Position numbers and translations under genes: made by a program. The notes beneath the pieces were generated by a model. That model was not told the origin of the DNA. It saw nothing but the letters and a program-made list of their open reading frames with translations, and did no database searches. 64,000 nucleotides of DNA from Acidimicrobiales bacterium (lineage in GTDB: Bacteria > Actinomycetota > Acidimicrobiia > Acidimicrobiales > SKKL01), in contig JAXHLR010000010.1 of the NCBI GenBank assembly GCA_034521975.1, positions 1-64,000 on the forward strand, given 5' to 3'. Position 1 is the first letter of the stretch; each line of letters opens with the position of its first letter. Of the stretch, positions 18,043-25,723 are shown one piece after another.

Positions 18043-19845
18043 ATGCTCACCAACGAGGACCTGCTCGAACGAGTGGCGGGGCAGACCATCTCGTCGCGAT
18101 TCCTCGAGACCGCCCGAGACCTCGCGGATCACGTCGCGCTCCGGTGGAGGACCGACGACGGGGCATGGCACGAGTGGACCTTCGCCGACTACCTCGACCG
18201 GGTGGCGCGGGCCGCGGCCGCCTACCGGGCCCACGGCGTCGCCGACGGCGACCGGGTGGTGCTCATGTTGCGCAACGTCCCCGAGTTCCACGTGCTCGAC
18301 ATGGCGGCCTACTTCGTGGGTGCCACCCCCGTGTCGATCTACAACTCGTCGTCCCCCGACCAGATCCAGTACCTGGTCAACCACTGCGGCGCGGTCCTCG
18401 GGATCGCCGACGATGCCGCGTTCCTCGACCGGTTCCAGCAGGTCCACGCCGACATGGCGACGATGACCACGCTCGGCATCGTGTCGGACCCCGACGGCGC
18501 TGCCGGTGGCGACGTCGTGACCTTCGACGACATGTTGGCCAACGACCCGATCGATCTGGACCAGGCGGCCACGGTGGCCCAACCCGACGATCTCGCCACC
18601 ATCATCTACACCTCGGGCACCACGGGACCGCCCAAGGGTGTGATGCTCACCCACACCAACATCTGCTGGACCGTCGAATCGCTGAAGGAGACCATCGGTC
18701 TCACCGAGTTCGTCGGCAAGCGCCTGGTCTCCTACCTGCCGATGGCCCACATCGCCGAGCGGATGACCTCGCACTACCAGCAGTCGATGCTGGGGTTCGA
18801 GGTGTCCTGCTGCCCGGACCCGGGCCAGATCGCGCAGTACCTGGGCGAGGTGCGGCCCAACATCATCTTCGGCGTCCCACGGGTGTGGGAGAAGATCTAC
18901 GCGGGGGTCACCGCTGCCCTGGCCGCCGACCAGGAGCGGGCGAAGCAGTTCAACGAGGCGATCGAGGCGGCGTTGCCCATCGTCGAGAAGATGGACTGGG
19001 GAACCGCCACCGACGACGAGGTCGCCACCTGGGAGTTCCTCGACCAGGTGGCCTTCTCCACCGTGCGCGGTTTGGTCGGGCTCGACCAGGCCGAGGTCGC
19101 CATCTCGGGAGCAGCGCCCATCCCCGGAGATCTGCTCGCCTGGTTCCGCGCCGTGGGCATCCCGCTCAGTGAGATCTACGGCATGTCAGAGAGCTCGGGG
19201 CCCATGACCTATGCCGCCAGCCAGGTGAAGCCGGGCTGGGTCGGGCCAGGCATCGTCGGCTGCGAGGTCAAGCTGGCCGATGACGGCGAGATCGTGTGCC
19301 GGGGCGGAAACGTCTTCGTCGGCTATCTGAACAACCCCGAGGCCACCGAGGAGACGCTCGTCGACCAATGGCTGCACTCGGGCGACATCGGTGAGCTCGA
19401 CGCCGACGGCTACTTCCGCATCGTCGACCGTAAGAAGGAGCTGATCATCACCGCCGGCGGCAAGAACGTGAGCCCCGCCAACCTCGAAGCTGCGCTCAAG
19501 ATGATCCCGCTGGTCGGCCAGGCCTGTGCGGTGGGCGACCAGCGCCCGTTCATCGCCGCGCTCGTGGTGCTCGACCCCGATGTGGCGCCGTCGTGGGCGG
19601 CCAACGAGGGGCTCGAGACCACCGCCCTGGGCGAACTGGCCGACCACCCCCGGGTGGTCGAGGAGATCGAGCGTGGCCTCGAGGAGGTCATGGCTCCGTT
19701 CAACAACGCCGAGCGGGTCAAGAAGGTGAAGATCCTCGGCGAGGAGTGGTTGCCGGACTCCGATCTGTTGACCCCCACGTCCAAGCTGAAGCGGCGGGGC
19801 GTCCTGGCGCGCTACGCGGAGGAGATCGAGTCGCTCTATTCGTGA
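18043..19845 (+). CDS. Long-chain fatty-acid-CoA ligase (FadD15-type AMP-dependent synthetase)
   Basis: 600 residues from ATG 18043 (GAGAGGGGAT upstream; a TAGTGT hexamer at about 17994-17999 gives a leader of some 40 nt). Motifs: YTSGTTGPPKGVMLTH, a central SYLPMAHIAERM typical of long-chain ligases, EIYGMSESSG, WLHSGDIGELD, and DRKKELIITAGGKNVSP at the C-terminal hinge. It activates fatty acids for oxidation or lipid assembly. It may also provide acyl-CoA for the GNAT-fold acyltransferase encoded 183 bp downstream on the same strand, although a hairpin separates them. Confidence 0.93.
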   Translation: MLTNEDLLERVAGQTISSRFLETARDLADHVALRWRTDDGAWHEWTFADYLDRVARAAAAYRAHGVADGDRVVLMLRNVPEFHVLDMAAYFVGATPVSIYNSSSPDQIQYLVNHCGAVLGIADDAAFLDRFQQVHADMATMTTLGIVSDPDGAAGGDVVTFDDMLANDPIDLDQAATVAQPDDLATIIYTSGTTGPPKGVMLTHTNICWTVESLKETIGLTEFVGKRLVSYLPMAHIAERMTSHYQQSMLGFEVSCCPDPGQIAQYLGEVRPNIIFGVPRVWEKIYAGVTAALAADQERAKQFNEAIEAALPIVEKMDWGTATDDEVATWEFLDQVAFSTVRGLVGLDQAEVAISGAAPIPGDLLAWFRAVGIPLSEIYGMSESSGPMTYAASQVKPGWVGPGIVGCEVKLADDGEIVCRGGNVFVGYLNNPEATEETLVDQWLHSGDIGELDADGYFRIVDRKKELIITAGGKNVSPANLEAALKMIPLVGQACAVGDQRPFIAALVVLDPDVAPSWAANEGLETTALGELADHPRVVEEIERGLEEVMAPFNNAERVKKVKILGEEWLPDSDLLTPTSKLKRRGVLARYAEEIESLYS

Positions 19846-20028: not shown

Positions 20029-20661
20029 ATGAGCGTCACCATCGAGACGGTCGTCGATGATCCTGCGGTCGTCGAACAGTTCCTCGGTCTGTACCGGTCG
20101 GCGTTCGCACCGCTCGACTCGCTGGCCGCGGCGCGGCAATCGCTTACCGACGACGAGTTCCGGGACGAGATGAGCGAGGAGTCGGTCCTCAAGTTCGTCG
20201 GTTGGGACCGTCACGGCACGCCGGTCGCCATGTGCCTGCTGGCCACCGACCTCTCCAAGTTGCCCTGGATCAGCCCCGCGTTCTGGCAGCAGCGCTACCC
20301 CGAGCAGTTTGCACGCAACGCCATCTTCTATGTGGGCGCGGTGCTCGTCAGCCCCTCGGTCAAGGGCAGCCTGTGGTTCCGCCGCCTGCTGCTGGCCACC
20401 GTCCGCCACGCGGCCAGCCATCACGGTGTGGGGGCGCTCGACGTGTGCCGGTACAACGTCGAGGAGATCAACCTGCCTCGCATCGTCGCCGAGGTCTCCG
20501 CGGCGGTGGCCGAGGTCGAGTTCGAACACGTCGACACCCAGAGCTACTACGCCTACGTCTACGACGGGCTCAAGACCAAGACCTCCACCCCTGCCGAGAT
20601 CGACCTGCGCGACCCCGTCCACTCCACTGCCACACCGGGCGAGGGCGTGACCGGCCGATGA
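20029..20661 (+). CDS. GNAT-fold acyltransferase-like protein in an arginine-decarboxylase operon
   Basis: 210 residues from ATG 20029; an upstream in-frame GTG at 19873 would read through the leader hairpins and is rejected. The middle (NAIFYVGAVLVSPSVKGSLW followed by RRLLLATVRHAASHHGV) has the strand-helix layout of an acyl-CoA binding GNAT core, and the start resembles autoinducer-synthase-like or FeeM-like N-acyltransferases only in general shape. The exact family is not certain. Its stop overlaps the next start (ATGA at 20658), so it is coupled to a pyruvoyl-dependent decarboxylase whose amine product would be an obvious acceptor; that role is inference. Confidence 0.7.
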   Translation: MSVTIETVVDDPAVVEQFLGLYRSAFAPLDSLAAARQSLTDDEFRDEMSEESVLKFVGWDRHGTPVAMCLLATDLSKLPWISPAFWQQRYPEQFARNAIFYVGAVLVSPSVKGSLWFRRLLLATVRHAASHHGVGALDVCRYNVEEINLPRIVAEVSAAVAEVEFEHVDTQSYYAYVYDGLKTKTSTPAEIDLRDPVHSTATPGEGVTGR

Positions 20662-21227
20662 CCACCTTCTCCACCGCCCATCTCCGGGGATCGACCGAGC
20701 CCCGTGCCGTCCGCAGGGACTCCGCGGCCGAGTCTGCCGGTCTCACCATCTCGGTGACCTCCGCTGTCGGCACCGGCCCCACACCGGTGGTGGCGTTCGA
20801 CGCCGCGCTGCTCGAGGCCGGGGTCGGCAACCTCAACCTCGTCCGCCTCAGCTCGGTGGTCCCCACCGGCGCCACCATCGAGGTCGCGGCGGAACAGCCA
20901 CCGGCGGGCGGTCCACGCGACGCCGGGTGGGGCGACCGTCACTACGTCGTCTACGCCGATGCCAGGGCGGCCACCCCGGGCGAGGTGGCCGCGGCCTGTG
21001 TCGGCTGGGTCCAGGACCCGGCCACCGGTTCCGGGCTCTTCGTCGAGATCGAGGGAGACGACGAGGCCCGCGTGCGCCGAGAGGTCGCCGAGAGCCTCGA
21101 GGTCATGGCCGACGCCCGGAACCTCGATCTCGGCGCCCCGGTGCTGCTCAGCCGCTCGATCCGGTGCGACCACGATCCGGTGTGCGCCCTGGTGGTCGCA
21201 TCGTTCGCCACCGAGAGCTGGACATGA
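20658..21227 (+). CDS. Pyruvoyl-dependent arginine decarboxylase-like protein
   Basis: 189 residues from ATG 20658. FDAALLEAGVGNLNLVRLSS corresponds closely to the active-site segment of archaeal PvlArgDC, whose proenzyme cleaves itself between two serines to make the pyruvoyl group; the Ser-Ser pair (about residues 72-73), the preceding Asn, and the Glu in GLFVEIEG are all kept. It should remove CO2 from arginine (giving agmatine) or a related amino acid. Known enzymes of this family occur mainly in archaea and some bacteria for polyamine synthesis; here no agmatinase or spermidine gene is adjacent. Overlaps both neighbours by ATGA. Confidence 0.82.
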   Translation: MTTFSTAHLRGSTEPRAVRRDSAAESAGLTISVTSAVGTGPTPVVAFDAALLEAGVGNLNLVRLSSVVPTGATIEVAAEQPPAGGPRDAGWGDRHYVVYADARAATPGEVAAACVGWVQDPATGSGLFVEIEGDDEARVRREVAESLEVMADARNLDLGAPVLLSRSIRCDHDPVCALVVASFATESWT

Positions 21228-22135
21228 CCGCTGCGTCCCGCGCCCAGCCGGCACGCTCCACCGGGCCCGAACTGTTCGGATCACCATCGACCGCGTTCGA
21301 GCGCCTGGCCGACGTCGAACGCACCGCCAAGCTCATCGACGCGGTGGCCGACGTCGTTCGTCCCGGTGACCGTGTGCTCGAACTGGGGACCGGCACCGGG
21401 ATCCTGTCCCTCGCCGCGGCCCGTGCCGGGGCCGAGGTGGTCGATGCCTACGAGCTGTCAGCCTCCACTGCGGCCACGGCCCGGAAGAACGTCGCCGCCA
21501 ACGGATACGCCACTGTGGTCCAGGTGATCGAGGAGGACGTCACCGGCTGCCGGTTCTCCGGACCCTACGACGTCGTCATCGCCGAGCTCATCAGTGTCGG
21601 GCTGGTCGCCAGCCAGCTCGTGCCGGCGTTCAACAACCTGGTCACCCAAGGGGTCCTCGCGCCCGACGTGCGGATGATTCCGTCGTCGCAGTCGACCTTC
21701 ATCGAGCTGGTCGAGGCCGACGACGAGCTCTTCGGGTTCCAGTTCCCCATGATCCAGATCGAACAGGCCTGGCAGGAGCGCCGGGTGCGCGACACCATGA
21801 CCGAGCTGCGGCTGGTCGCGCACCCCGACTTCACCACTGCCGCCCGTGAAGGCTCCACGATCGACGAGCGGGCGCTGGCCATCATCGACCTCAAGGTGCT
21901 GCACTCCGGTCGGGTCAACGCCCTGCGGATGACCAGCATGTCCCACCTGGCACCCGGGATCGACTCCGGATGGACCCAGTGCATGAACTCGCCGGCACTC
22001 ATCCCGATCGAGCCCCGTGAGCTGGCGGTCGCCACCACCGTCGGCATCGACCTCAGCTACCGCATGGGCTCGGGGTTCTCCGGCCTGCGGTTCGACTGGA
22101 GCGACGGCATCACGACTGACATAAGCCTGGGCTGA
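21224..22135 (+). CDS. SAM-dependent methyltransferase, protein-arginine-methyltransferase-like
   Basis: 303 residues from ATG 21224. A class I methyltransferase core with motif I VLELGTGTGILSLAAARAGA, an acidic DAYELSAS strand end, EEDVTGCRF, and DVVIAELISVGL in the place of the PRMT double-E loop. The C-terminal 150 residues resemble the beta-barrel half of PRMTs (IPIEPRELAVATTVGIDLSY). With an arginine decarboxylase upstream, a small guanidino compound is a plausible substrate, but this is inference. Last gene of the coupled trio; the next gene on the strand begins 57 nt later. Confidence 0.8.
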   Translation: MTAASRAQPARSTGPELFGSPSTAFERLADVERTAKLIDAVADVVRPGDRVLELGTGTGILSLAAARAGAEVVDAYELSASTAATARKNVAANGYATVVQVIEEDVTGCRFSGPYDVVIAELISVGLVASQLVPAFNNLVTQGVLAPDVRMIPSSQSTFIELVEADDELFGFQFPMIQIEQAWQERRVRDTMTELRLVAHPDFTTAAREGSTIDERALAIIDLKVLHSGRVNALRMTSMSHLAPGIDSGWTQCMNSPALIPIEPRELAVATTVGIDLSYRMGSGFSGLRFDWSDGITTDISLG

Positions 22136-22192: not shown

Positions 22193-25100
22193 ATGCCTGC
22201 GCTGTGGCTTCGCTTCCTGGTGCTCAGCCTGCTGCTTCACGCCGCGGGCCTGGTCACCGCGCCCACCGGCGCGGGGATCGCCGCCCAGCTCATCGGATGG
22301 GCGGCCGTCGTCGCCCTGGTCCGTCGAGGACGTCGCCACGACGATGCCCAGCGGTTCCCCTGGTACTGGCTGGGTGCCGGGGCCGGTCTGATCCTGGCTG
22401 GTGGTCTGGCCACCGTCGTGCACGGCGCGGCGATCGGCGTGAGCGAACCCTTCCCCTCCGCGGGTGAGCCGTTCTACATCCTCGGCTATCTGGCCCTCTT
22501 CGTGGGCGAGATCCAGCTGATGCGGCTGCGCACCGTCGTACGTCAGCGTTCGGATGTGATCGACGCGCTCATCGTCGCTGCCGCCGCAGGCCTCATCGTC
22601 TGGGTCACGATCCTGGCCCCCTATGTGCGTGACGACACGATCAGCCTGGCCGAGCGCGCCTTGAACGTGCAGTACTCGCTCCTGGCGCTGCTCATCGTTG
22701 GGGCCACCACCAGGCTGGCGGTCGGCCCCGGCTTTCGGGCTCCCAGCTACTACTTCTTCGCGGCCGCGGCGGGGGTGATCCTGCTCGCCGATGTGAACCT
22801 GACCCTTGAGACCACTGGTCAGGTCGAGACCGGTCTCTACCTCGCGCTCGCGCCGCTGGCCTACGTGTTCGTCGGTACGGCGGCGCTGCATCCCTCGGCC
22901 GATCGGCTCACCGCCCGTCCCGAGTACACCCCACCGCGGCTGACCCGGCGCCGCATCGCGATGCTGGCCGGCGCGTTGCTGATGGGACCCGCGGTCCTGG
23001 TGTTCCAAGCAGCACGTGAGAGCCCGATCGACCTGCCGGTGGTGGTGACCGGGTGGGTCGCGCTCTCGCTGCTGGTCCTGGCGCGGCTGGGCTCGCTCAT
23101 CCGGGAGGAGGAACGAGCCGCGGTCCGCGAACGGGTCCTGCGGGACATGGGTTCGGTCCTGGTGGTCGGCGGCAGCCGCGAGGAGATGCACACCGCGGCC
23201 CTCTGGGCGGTGCTCGAGCTGACGAACGGGCTCCCGGCCGGTCGGGCCAGCGTCTTGAGCATCGGCAGCGACGGCATGGTCGAGGTGGTCGCCTCGGTCG
23301 GGCGCCGCTCGACCGGTTCCGACGGCGTTCGCCTGTCCATCGAGGAGCTCCCCGGCCCGGTTCGCGAAGCGCTGTCCCAACGCCACCCCATCAGCCTCGA
23401 GCGGGTCCCGGCGTTCGACGTCCTCGACGCCGGTTCCGACGAGGTCGAGGCGTCGGTGGTCGTCGCCCCGCTCATCGCTCGTGGTCGCACCTCGGGGGCG
23501 ATCGTCGTCGCCTCGGCGATCCCGATCGAGCGGGGAGCGGTCACCGCGCTCACGTCGGTGGCCATGGAGGTGTCGCTCGCCATCGAGAGCGCGGCGCTCA
23601 CCGAGGACCTCCACCGGCGCAAGAGCGACCGGCGGTTCCGGGCCCTGGTCGAGAACAGCTCCGAGCTCATCGTGGTCCTCGACGACGAGGGCTTCGGCAT
23701 GTTCGCCACCCCGGTGGTCGAGCGCCTGCTCGGCCATCCCGAGCACTACTTCCTCGGCCCGCTTCCCCAGGACCTCATCCATCCCGAGGACCAGCTCCGC
23801 TTCGGCGCGCTGCTCGACGCCGCGCGAGAGGGCGGGAGCGAGGACGAGTCGCGCGAGCTTCGCCTCCTGCACGCCGACGGGTCGTACCGGTGGTTCGAGA
23901 TGCGTGCCCGCGACCTCTCCGAAGAGGAGGAGATCGGCGGCCTCGTGCTCACCGCACGCGACGTCACCGATCGCAAGCTGGCCGAGCAGCGCCTCGCCCG
24001 CTCCGAAGCCCGGTTCCGTTCCCTCGTCCAGAACAGCTCCGACGTGGTGGCGGTCATCGACGAGAAGGGTTCGCTGAGCTATGTGAGTCCTGCGGTCGGC
24101 CCCATGCTCGGGTTCCGCGCTGAGGAACTGGTGGGAACCAACATCATGCGGCTGCTCCCCGCCGATGAGGTCAGTCGGGCGATGAAGCTGCTCGACGGGA
24201 TCACCGCCGAGCCCTTCGAACAGCTCAACGTGGAGATGCGTCTCCGTGACCGCGACGGCACCTGGCGCAACGTCGACGTCACCATCTCCGACATGCGCGC
24301 GGAGTCAGCGGTGCAGGGCATCGTGTTGAACGTCCGTGACGTCACGGTGCGCCGAGCCCTCGAGCAGGACCTGCGTCACAGGGCGCTCCACGACGAGCTC
24401 ACCGGCCTCGGCAACCGGGTGCACTTCGAGCAGCGTCTCACCCGGGCGCTGGCGAGGACCGAGTCGCGCCTCGACCAGGTCGCGGTCCTGCTCGTCGACC
24501 TGGACGACTTCAAGGAGATCAATGACTCGCTCGGACACGGCACCGGCGATCAGCTCCTCATGTCGGTCGCCGAGCGGATCAGGGCCTGCCTGAGGGTCTC
24601 CGACGCCGCAGCCCGCCTCGGCGGTGACGAGTTCGGCATCCTCCTCGAGGACACCTACGGCGAGTCCGAGGTCTTCGCGGTGGCCGACCGCATCCTGCTG
24701 GCCATCTCCCAGCCCTACACCGTCGACGGCCGCGAGCTCACCTTCACCGCCAGCATCGGGATCGTGATCGACCCCAACCGGTCGTCCACCTCCGAAGCGC
24801 TGATGCGCAGTGTCGACGTCGCCATGTACCTTGCCAAGGACCGGGGCAAGGGTCGCTATGAGCTGTTCCAGGAGTCGGCTCACGCCGGCGCGTTCGAACG
24901 CCTCGAGCTCAAGGCTGCGCTCAGCGACGCGGTGCGCACCGGTGGGCTGGTCCTGCACTACCAGCCGATCGTCGAACTGGAGTCCGGCACCATCACCGGC
25001 TGCGAGGCGTTGGTGCGCTGGCAGCATCCCGAACGGGGGCTCATCGCTCCCGCCGAGTTCATCCCCCTGGCCGAGGACACCGGCCTCATCGTGGCCTTGG

Positions 25101-25723
25101 GGCGATGGGTGCTGATGGAGGCCTGCCTCCAGCTGGCCGAGTGGGACCATCGCGTGCCCGAGGCCGGGTCACTGCGGGTGAGCGTGAACCTCTCGGTCCG
25201 CCAGATCGAGTCCATGACCCTGATCTCCGACGTCTCCGACGCGTTGGCCGAGAGCGGGATCGCGCCGGACCGCCTGACCCTGGAGATCACCGAGAGCCTG
25301 GTGATGAACGACGATCTCGACACCCTCGAGCGCTTGGCCGAGCTGCGGTCGAGGGGGATCGCCCTGGCCGTCGACGACTTCGGCACGGGCTACTCCTCGC
25401 TGGGCTACATCCAGCAGTTCCCACTCGACGTCATCAAGATCGACCGCAGCTTCGTCACCCGTCTGGGGACCGCCAGCGCCGGCACCGGTCAGCTCGTGCG
25501 CACCATCGTCGAGCTGGCCTCGAGCCTGCGGGCCACGAGCGTGGCCGAGGGCATCGAGCACCCGGGGGAGCTGGACGAGCTGCTCGCCATGGGGTGCCAG
25601 TACGGCCAGGGCTTCTACTTCTCCCACCCGATCCCCGCCGATGAGTTCCTCACCTTGTTGCAAACCGCGGTGAACGGCGAGGGCGGCACCCATCAGCTGA
25701 GCCTCGGTCAACGCTCGCGGTAG
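22193..25723 (+). CDS. Membrane-bound GGDEF-EAL protein with GAF and PAS sensors
   Basis: 1176 residues from ATG 22193. About eight to nine membrane helices occupy residues 1-285; then a GAF-like region (about 305-460), two PAS domains (about 479-595 and 606-720, both starting RFR-LV-NSS), a GGDEF domain with RLGGDEF near 808 and a canonical RxxD inhibition site (RVSD) five residues before it, and an EAL domain with CEALVRW near 938 and DDFGTGYSSLGY. Both c-di-GMP synthesis and hydrolysis motifs look intact. The ligand of the membrane part is unknown. It is close enough to the methyltransferase gene (57 nt) to share its transcript. Confidence 0.93.
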   Translation: MPALWLRFLVLSLLLHAAGLVTAPTGAGIAAQLIGWAAVVALVRRGRRHDDAQRFPWYWLGAGAGLILAGGLATVVHGAAIGVSEPFPSAGEPFYILGYLALFVGEIQLMRLRTVVRQRSDVIDALIVAAAAGLIVWVTILAPYVRDDTISLAERALNVQYSLLALLIVGATTRLAVGPGFRAPSYYFFAAAAGVILLADVNLTLETTGQVETGLYLALAPLAYVFVGTAALHPSADRLTARPEYTPPRLTRRRIAMLAGALLMGPAVLVFQAARESPIDLPVVVTGWVALSLLVLARLGSLIREEERAAVRERVLRDMGSVLVVGGSREEMHTAALWAVLELTNGLPAGRASVLSIGSDGMVEVVASVGRRSTGSDGVRLSIEELPGPVREALSQRHPISLERVPAFDVLDAGSDEVEASVVVAPLIARGRTSGAIVVASAIPIERGAVTALTSVAMEVSLAIESAALTEDLHRRKSDRRFRALVENSSELIVVLDDEGFGMFATPVVERLLGHPEHYFLGPLPQDLIHPEDQLRFGALLDAAREGGSEDESRELRLLHADGSYRWFEMRARDLSEEEEIGGLVLTARDVTDRKLAEQRLARSEARFRSLVQNSSDVVAVIDEKGSLSYVSPAVGPMLGFRAEELVGTNIMRLLPADEVSRAMKLLDGITAEPFEQLNVEMRLRDRDGTWRNVDVTISDMRAESAVQGIVLNVRDVTVRRALEQDLRHRALHDELTGLGNRVHFEQRLTRALARTESRLDQVAVLLVDLDDFKEINDSLGHGTGDQLLMSVAERIRACLRVSDAAARLGGDEFGILLEDTYGESEVFAVADRILLAISQPYTVDGRELTFTASIGIVIDPNRSSTSEALMRSVDVAMYLAKDRGKGRYELFQESAHAGAFERLELKAALSDAVRTGGLVLHYQPIVELESGTITGCEALVRWQHPERGLIAPAEFIPLAEDTGLIVALGRWVLMEACLQLAEWDHRVPEAGSLRVSVNLSVRQIESMTLISDVSDALAESGIAPDRLTLEITESLVMNDDLDTLERLAELRSRGIALAVDDFGTGYSSLGYIQQFPLDVIKIDRSFVTRLGTASAGTGQLVRTIVELASSLRATSVAEGIEHPGELDELLAMGCQYGQGFYFSHPIPADEFLTLLQTAVNGEGGTHQLSLGQRSR

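Follow-up and report, generated by a model that had tools for sequence, protein, structure and literature searches.

What does a pyruvoyl-dependent decarboxylase of the arginine decarboxylase family do in an actinobacterium, encoded between a putative acyltransferase and a methyltransferase-like protein? In the window, as we call the whole 64,000-nucleotide stretch of Acidimicrobiales DNA that was analysed, the forward strand carries a GNAT-fold putative N-acyltransferase (P0001, 20029–20661), a decarboxylase of the PvlArgDC family (P0002, 20658–21227) and a PRMT-like SAM methyltransferase (P0003, 21224–22135), joined by ATGA stop-to-start overlaps at 20658 and 21224. Genes, coordinates and overlaps are exactly as given in a preliminary description of the locus, which however ended the unit there and overlooked a fourth co-directional gene: 57 nt after the methyltransferase starts the gene for a membrane sensor-GAF-PAS-PAS-GGDEF-EAL protein (22193–25723, forward strand), a putative receptor with c-di-GMP output. 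The transcription unit probably runs past the methyltransferase into this sensor gene; promoter and terminator scans found no site.

P0002 matches the Pfam family PvlArgDC (PF01862) with an E-value of 4.5e-23 (82.3 bits against a cut-off of 22.7), and its alignment with the M. jannaschii enzyme (1n2m) equates N60 with N47, S65-S66 with S52-S53 and E130 with E109. The autocleavage Ser-Ser, the Asn and the active-site Glu that the preliminary description had picked out are thereby located, and they are near-invariant among 83 window-type relatives (Asn 83/83, first Ser 82/83, second Ser 83/83, Glu 83/83). S65-S66, whose codons lie at 20850–20855 on the forward strand, is accordingly the predicted site at which cleavage would generate the pyruvoyl group. 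The position equivalent to D35 is Asp in P0002 and His in 14 of the 83 relatives, so that the substrate may differ from arginine in some of them. P0002 misses the equivalog cut-off of TIGR00286, the polyamine-pathway arginine decarboxylase (54.2 against 106.95), and in a phylogenetic tree the window-type enzymes form a group of their own (support 0.79, with uncertain rooting). A profile of the window type gives canonical sequences 45–64 bits, and window-type sequences outside the locus list of its training set about 200 bits.

The extent of the system was defined by scanning the decarboxylase alignment over a collection of 84,980 species genomes of bacteria and archaea. Adding the window and two loci found in a search of its class to the 80 loci kept gives a set of 83 (82 distinct loci, as L030 and L047 lie on the same contig), about one third of which are from Nocardia. 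The kept loci belong to Acidimicrobiales, Nocardia, Actinoplanes, Klenkia, Geodermatophilus, Kineosporia and other actinobacteria, many Saccharibacteria and one Chloroflexi bin. Neighbouring ORFs were clustered by all-against-all BLAST and searched with purpose-built profiles. In 57 of the 83 loci a P0001-type GNAT is found no more than 1.5 kb from the decarboxylase, almost always on the same strand; the membrane domain of the sensor, usually fused to GGDEF, lies within 3.5 kb in 46/83; and both are near the decarboxylase in 42/83. Collapsed by lineage, the actinobacterial loci fall into 25 groups, the Chloroflexi bin being counted among them, and 18 of these have the membrane domain beside the decarboxylase; in Nocardia the decarboxylase, GNAT and sensor genes form a single overlapping run. 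The conserved core is thus decarboxylase, GNAT and membrane sensor, and the trio proposed as a unit in the preliminary description gives way to it: the methyltransferase occurs in only three of the 83 loci (the window, L035 and L075).

P0003 is therefore an accessory, lineage-specific extra. It is related to PRMTs by sequence (phmmer, 7e-10), and its homologues are adjacent in L035 (75% identical) and two genes away in L075 (32%). In its double-E loop the first glutamate is kept as E121 and the second is replaced by S130, a position at which L035, L075 and L007 keep Glu; its THW motif reads SGW, the histidine being missing. The likeness to PRMTs that the preliminary description had noted consequently stands, whereas its suggestion of guanidine methylation is weakened, since a copy lacking the second glutamate makes this activity doubtful on sequence grounds. 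The FadD11-like acyl-CoA ligase upstream (18043–19845, forward strand), which the preliminary description had noted just upstream, is separated from the GNAT gene by 183 nt; it keeps its synteny in the close relative L035 alone, and other loci do without it. It is rejected as a member of the unit and is probably a mere neighbour.

The GAF, two PAS, GGDEF and EAL domains of the sensor protein all match Pfam above cut-off, and the motifs of the GGDEF (24383–24853) and EAL (24917–25630) domains, both encoded on the forward strand, are intact. They follow a polytopic N-terminal membrane domain (22223–23101, forward strand) which matches no Pfam or NCBIfam family and, by sequence, has only insignificant matches in the PDB. 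A profile search finds one copy of this domain in the window's own genome, beside the decarboxylase, among about 32 GGDEF genes; across the phylum it is present in 138 of 396 genomes. Asp124, Asp200, Arg254 and Arg298 are near invariant in 89 sensors, whichever synthase adjoins. The model of the domain is confident (pLDDT 90.5), and its best fold matches are GPCR/rhodopsin-like seven-helix proteins (VIA Z 10.6, rmsd 3.9 over 180 residues), although unrelated helical bundles score likewise and the best Foldseek E-value is 0.044. In the phylum survey, Streptomyces-sized genomes (f65 g126) usually have one weak match to the domain each (E about 1e-13 to 1e-19), possibly from a developmental c-di-GMP enzyme that is already known and has a diverged form of the domain.

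The same type of sensor is also found next to a different enzyme. At 12 other loci (L164, L166–L169, L171–L173, L176, L177, L186 and L187), which were drawn from the highest-scoring sensor hits and whose fraction is hence a biased estimate, a sensor-GGDEF-EAL gene adjoins an alpha-oxoamine synthase, usually together with an MFS exporter. CqsA, an autoinducer synthase, belongs to the alpha-oxoamine synthase family, and in CqsA/CqsS alpha-hydroxyketone quorum sensing the synthase gene adjoins that of a polytopic membrane receptor. The synthases at the 12 loci show similarity to models of BioF, serine palmitoyltransferase and autoinducer synthase, all below cut-off and, for the autoinducer synthase, far below it (79.6–83 against 428). 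Judged from the gene arrangement, they represent a second pairing of a synthase with a putative receptor.

The recurrence of decarboxylase, acyltransferase and sensor in many actinobacteria suggests a signalling system rather than polyamine synthesis. From the observed gene identities, intact catalytic motifs, gene overlaps and pairing of synthase and sensor across genera, we infer, with moderate confidence, a small-molecule signalling operon in which the decarboxylase and the GNAT make an acylated amine, which the linked membrane receptor would sense and pass on as a change in c-di-GMP. With its motifs intact, the pyruvoyl-type enzyme would cleave itself to the pyruvoyl form and, as its family suggests, turn an amino acid, at a first guess arginine, into an amine, for instance agmatine. 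N-acylation of this amine would fall to the GNAT-fold enzyme, to go by its fold and by the FeeM-like proteins that replace it elsewhere, and the product might in addition be methylated in the window's genome. The pairing of genes points to the membrane domain of the GGDEF-EAL protein as the element that would sense the product and change c-di-GMP. The amino acid substrate, the acyl donor, the product, its binding by the sensor and any export between cells are each proposed in this conditional sense. The signalling reading is supported by the single-copy status of the membrane domain in a genome so rich in GGDEF genes, and by the persistence of GNAT–sensor pairs in the absence of the decarboxylase: among the genomes of the class, seven have a P0001-type GNAT and no decarboxylase match, and in these 8 of 8 GNAT genes adjoin a sensor-GGDEF gene. 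Further points in its favour are the variety of acyltransferases beside a constant decarboxylase, the pairing of related sensors with alpha-oxoamine synthases, the two Asp and two Arg residues that the membrane domain keeps in all pairings, and the want of a polyamine outlet for agmatine in the window's genome. The possibility of a signal, raised in the preliminary description, thus gains support from a conserved synthase–sensor pairing, the identity of the signal being conjectural. In the open-access papers searched, no description of decarboxylase, GNAT and sensor together was found.

Gene pairing by itself fits a receptor–ligand relation and mere co-regulation alike. The strongest rival is a specialised metabolite with no receptor relation: the acylated amine would serve as a lipid, antibiotic or osmolyte, and the c-di-GMP enzyme would only regulate its synthesis or be co-regulated with it. 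This explanation accommodates the decarboxylases that have no sensor nearby in Actinoplanes, Kineosporia, Virgisporangium and others, as well as the many sensor genes that have no recognisable synthase alongside, the domain standing solo in many genomes. It accounts less well for a dedicated, single-copy membrane domain that tracks synthase genes over many genera, and does so also where the synthase is a GNAT alone or an alpha-oxoamine synthase; we consider it unlikely. At the Actinoplanes loci L072, L082, L089–L091, L094 and L101 the window-type decarboxylase has neither GNAT nor sensor nearby, and several of these enzymes have His at the D35 position, perhaps reflecting another substrate.

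A second rival concerns the GNAT itself. By sequence, P0001 has no match in Pfam, NCBIfam or the PDB, and its assignment comes from an AlphaFold2 model (mean pLDDT 89.8) that adopts the GNAT fold (Foldseek E 8e-6, probability 1.00; VIA Z 14.3, rmsd 3.0 over 148 residues), in agreement with the fold named in the preliminary description. FeeM also turns up as a fold match, level with many other GNATs at Z 12.5; LuxI is not among the matches listed, which excludes nothing. Motif A, the acyl-CoA binding element (R/Q-x-x-G-x-G/A), is degenerate in P0001, so that its use of CoA is uncertain. PanZ, a GNAT protein, activates the pyruvoyl enzyme PanD (PMC3496974), and this precedent, the tight coupling of the GNAT and decarboxylase genes and the degenerate motif would all suit a PanZ-like factor that helps the decarboxylase mature by prompting it to cleave itself and is not an acyltransferase. 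A protein of this kind should occur only as the partner of a pyruvoyl enzyme, whereas homologues of P0001 adjoin either the decarboxylase or the sensor, and the eight pairs with the sensor in genomes without a decarboxylase match disfavour a PanZ-like role as its only one. Moreover, several acyltransferase types (P0001-type, FeeM-like and LPG_synthase_C-like) interchange beside a decarboxylase that stays constant; these observations make the maturation-factor explanation improbable overall, although such a role may hold where the GNAT is coupled to the decarboxylase. FeeM-like genes stand in for P0001 in L004 (G174), in L003 and L030 (Microthrixaceae) and in L037; the FeeM profile PF21926 gives no match for P0001, and with a cut-off of 27 bits the neighbouring genes score 26.8 in L003 and 28.3 in L004. 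In L058 (8581–9909), a P0001-type GNAT has a long C-terminal extension resembling a second GNAT-type domain and lies on the strand opposite to the decarboxylase.

That P0002 is an ordinary polyamine enzyme, an arginine decarboxylase whose agmatine is passed on to putrescine and spermidine, would be in keeping with its membership of the PvlArgDC family and its intact catalytic residues. The window's genome, which is 98.7% complete, nevertheless lacks genes of the arginase/agmatinase family and for agmatine deiminase, and none of its genes scores as a spermidine synthase above cut-off. As a control, canonical PF01862 loci of the same phylum have agmatinase-like and spermidine-synthase-like genes in 13 of 13 cases and a GNAT or sensor in none of the 13, whereas agmatinase or spermidine synthase (SpeE) is found at 0 of the 83 window-type loci, whose decarboxylases fall in a separate clade. 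On genome content and this control, a polyamine role is rejected as very unlikely, and the preference of the preliminary description for a small-molecule pathway over polyamine synthesis is supported; decarboxylase homologues sitting with agmatinase and SpeE, the arrangement that it had named as speaking against its reading, are found in the canonical clade only. Finally, that these genes are chance neighbours in a genome with some 32 GGDEF genes is scarcely credible given their overlaps, the single-copy sensor domain and the recurrence in 18 of 25 groups, for which a rough 6% rate derived from that number gives P of about 3e-17, a guide only, as lineages are taken as independent.

The signalling operon inferred for actinobacteria has a counterpart in Saccharibacteria. 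Downstream of the decarboxylase gene, these loci encode GNAT-type proteins (single or tandem P0001-type, FeeM-like or LPG_synthase_C-like) and a histidine kinase of the HisKA_7TM type; genes for one or two CheY-like regulators lie upstream in divergent orientation. The 7TM histidine kinase here stands in for the GGDEF sensor and, together with the CheY-like regulators, would provide the read-out. In four of these loci a separate membrane protein aligns with the profile of the actinobacterial sensor domain (hhalign probability 89%, P 2e-6), which suggests, at the level of profile comparison, that the two are homologous. Across L036–L063, the decarboxylase, GNAT, HisKA_7TM kinase and pairs of CheY-like regulators adjoin murI/murD/folD-like genes, and some of the GNATs are tandem repeats or are fused to other stretches.

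These parallels could be drawn together in an undescribed class of bacterial signalling common to Actinobacteria and Saccharibacteria, in which a pyruvoyl decarboxylase and interchangeable GNATs make acyl-amine signals, a new membrane receptor domain is wired to c-di-GMP or to a histidine kinase, and related receptors read the products of alpha-oxoamine synthases. We advance this generalisation tentatively, as a proposal with slightly less than an even chance of being right. To our knowledge, the signal read by most membrane-bound c-di-GMP enzymes is not known; here the probable ligand-making genes are fixed beside the receptor, and expression of two to four genes could reveal both. If the proposal is true, it accounts for a large group of "arginine decarboxylases" unlinked to polyamine synthesis, and actinobacteria including Nocardia have a signalling chemistry in common with the ultra-small Saccharibacteria. 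Some Saccharibacteria live on actinobacterial hosts, and acyl-amine signals could then even pass between epibiont and host.

Several known systems come close to parts of the locus. P0002 has the fold family, Ser-Ser cleavage site and active-site Asn and Glu of canonical PvlArgDC (M. jannaschii, 1MT1/1N2M), but the window type is a separate clade with a C-terminal PVCALV segment of its own, and is paired with GNAT and sensor where the canonical enzyme is paired with agmatinase and SpeE. P0003 has the SAM-binding motifs and first double-E glutamate of PRMT7-like arginine methyltransferases, from which S130 and the missing THW histidine set it apart. P0001 has the GNAT fold through which FeeM and other N-acyl amino acid synthases, as well as LuxI-type acyltransferases, make acylated small molecules, yet by sequence it matches neither FeeM nor any Pfam family. 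CqsA/CqsS likewise places a synthase beside a polytopic membrane receptor, and sensors related to that of the window adjoin alpha-oxoamine synthases of the CqsA family; in the window, however, the putative synthase consists of decarboxylase and GNAT, and the output is GGDEF/EAL. PanD and PanZ, lastly, provide a pyruvoyl enzyme with a GNAT partner, as at the window locus (PMC3496974), but there the decarboxylase belongs to another family, and the window's GNAT type is found also in genomes without a decarboxylase match.
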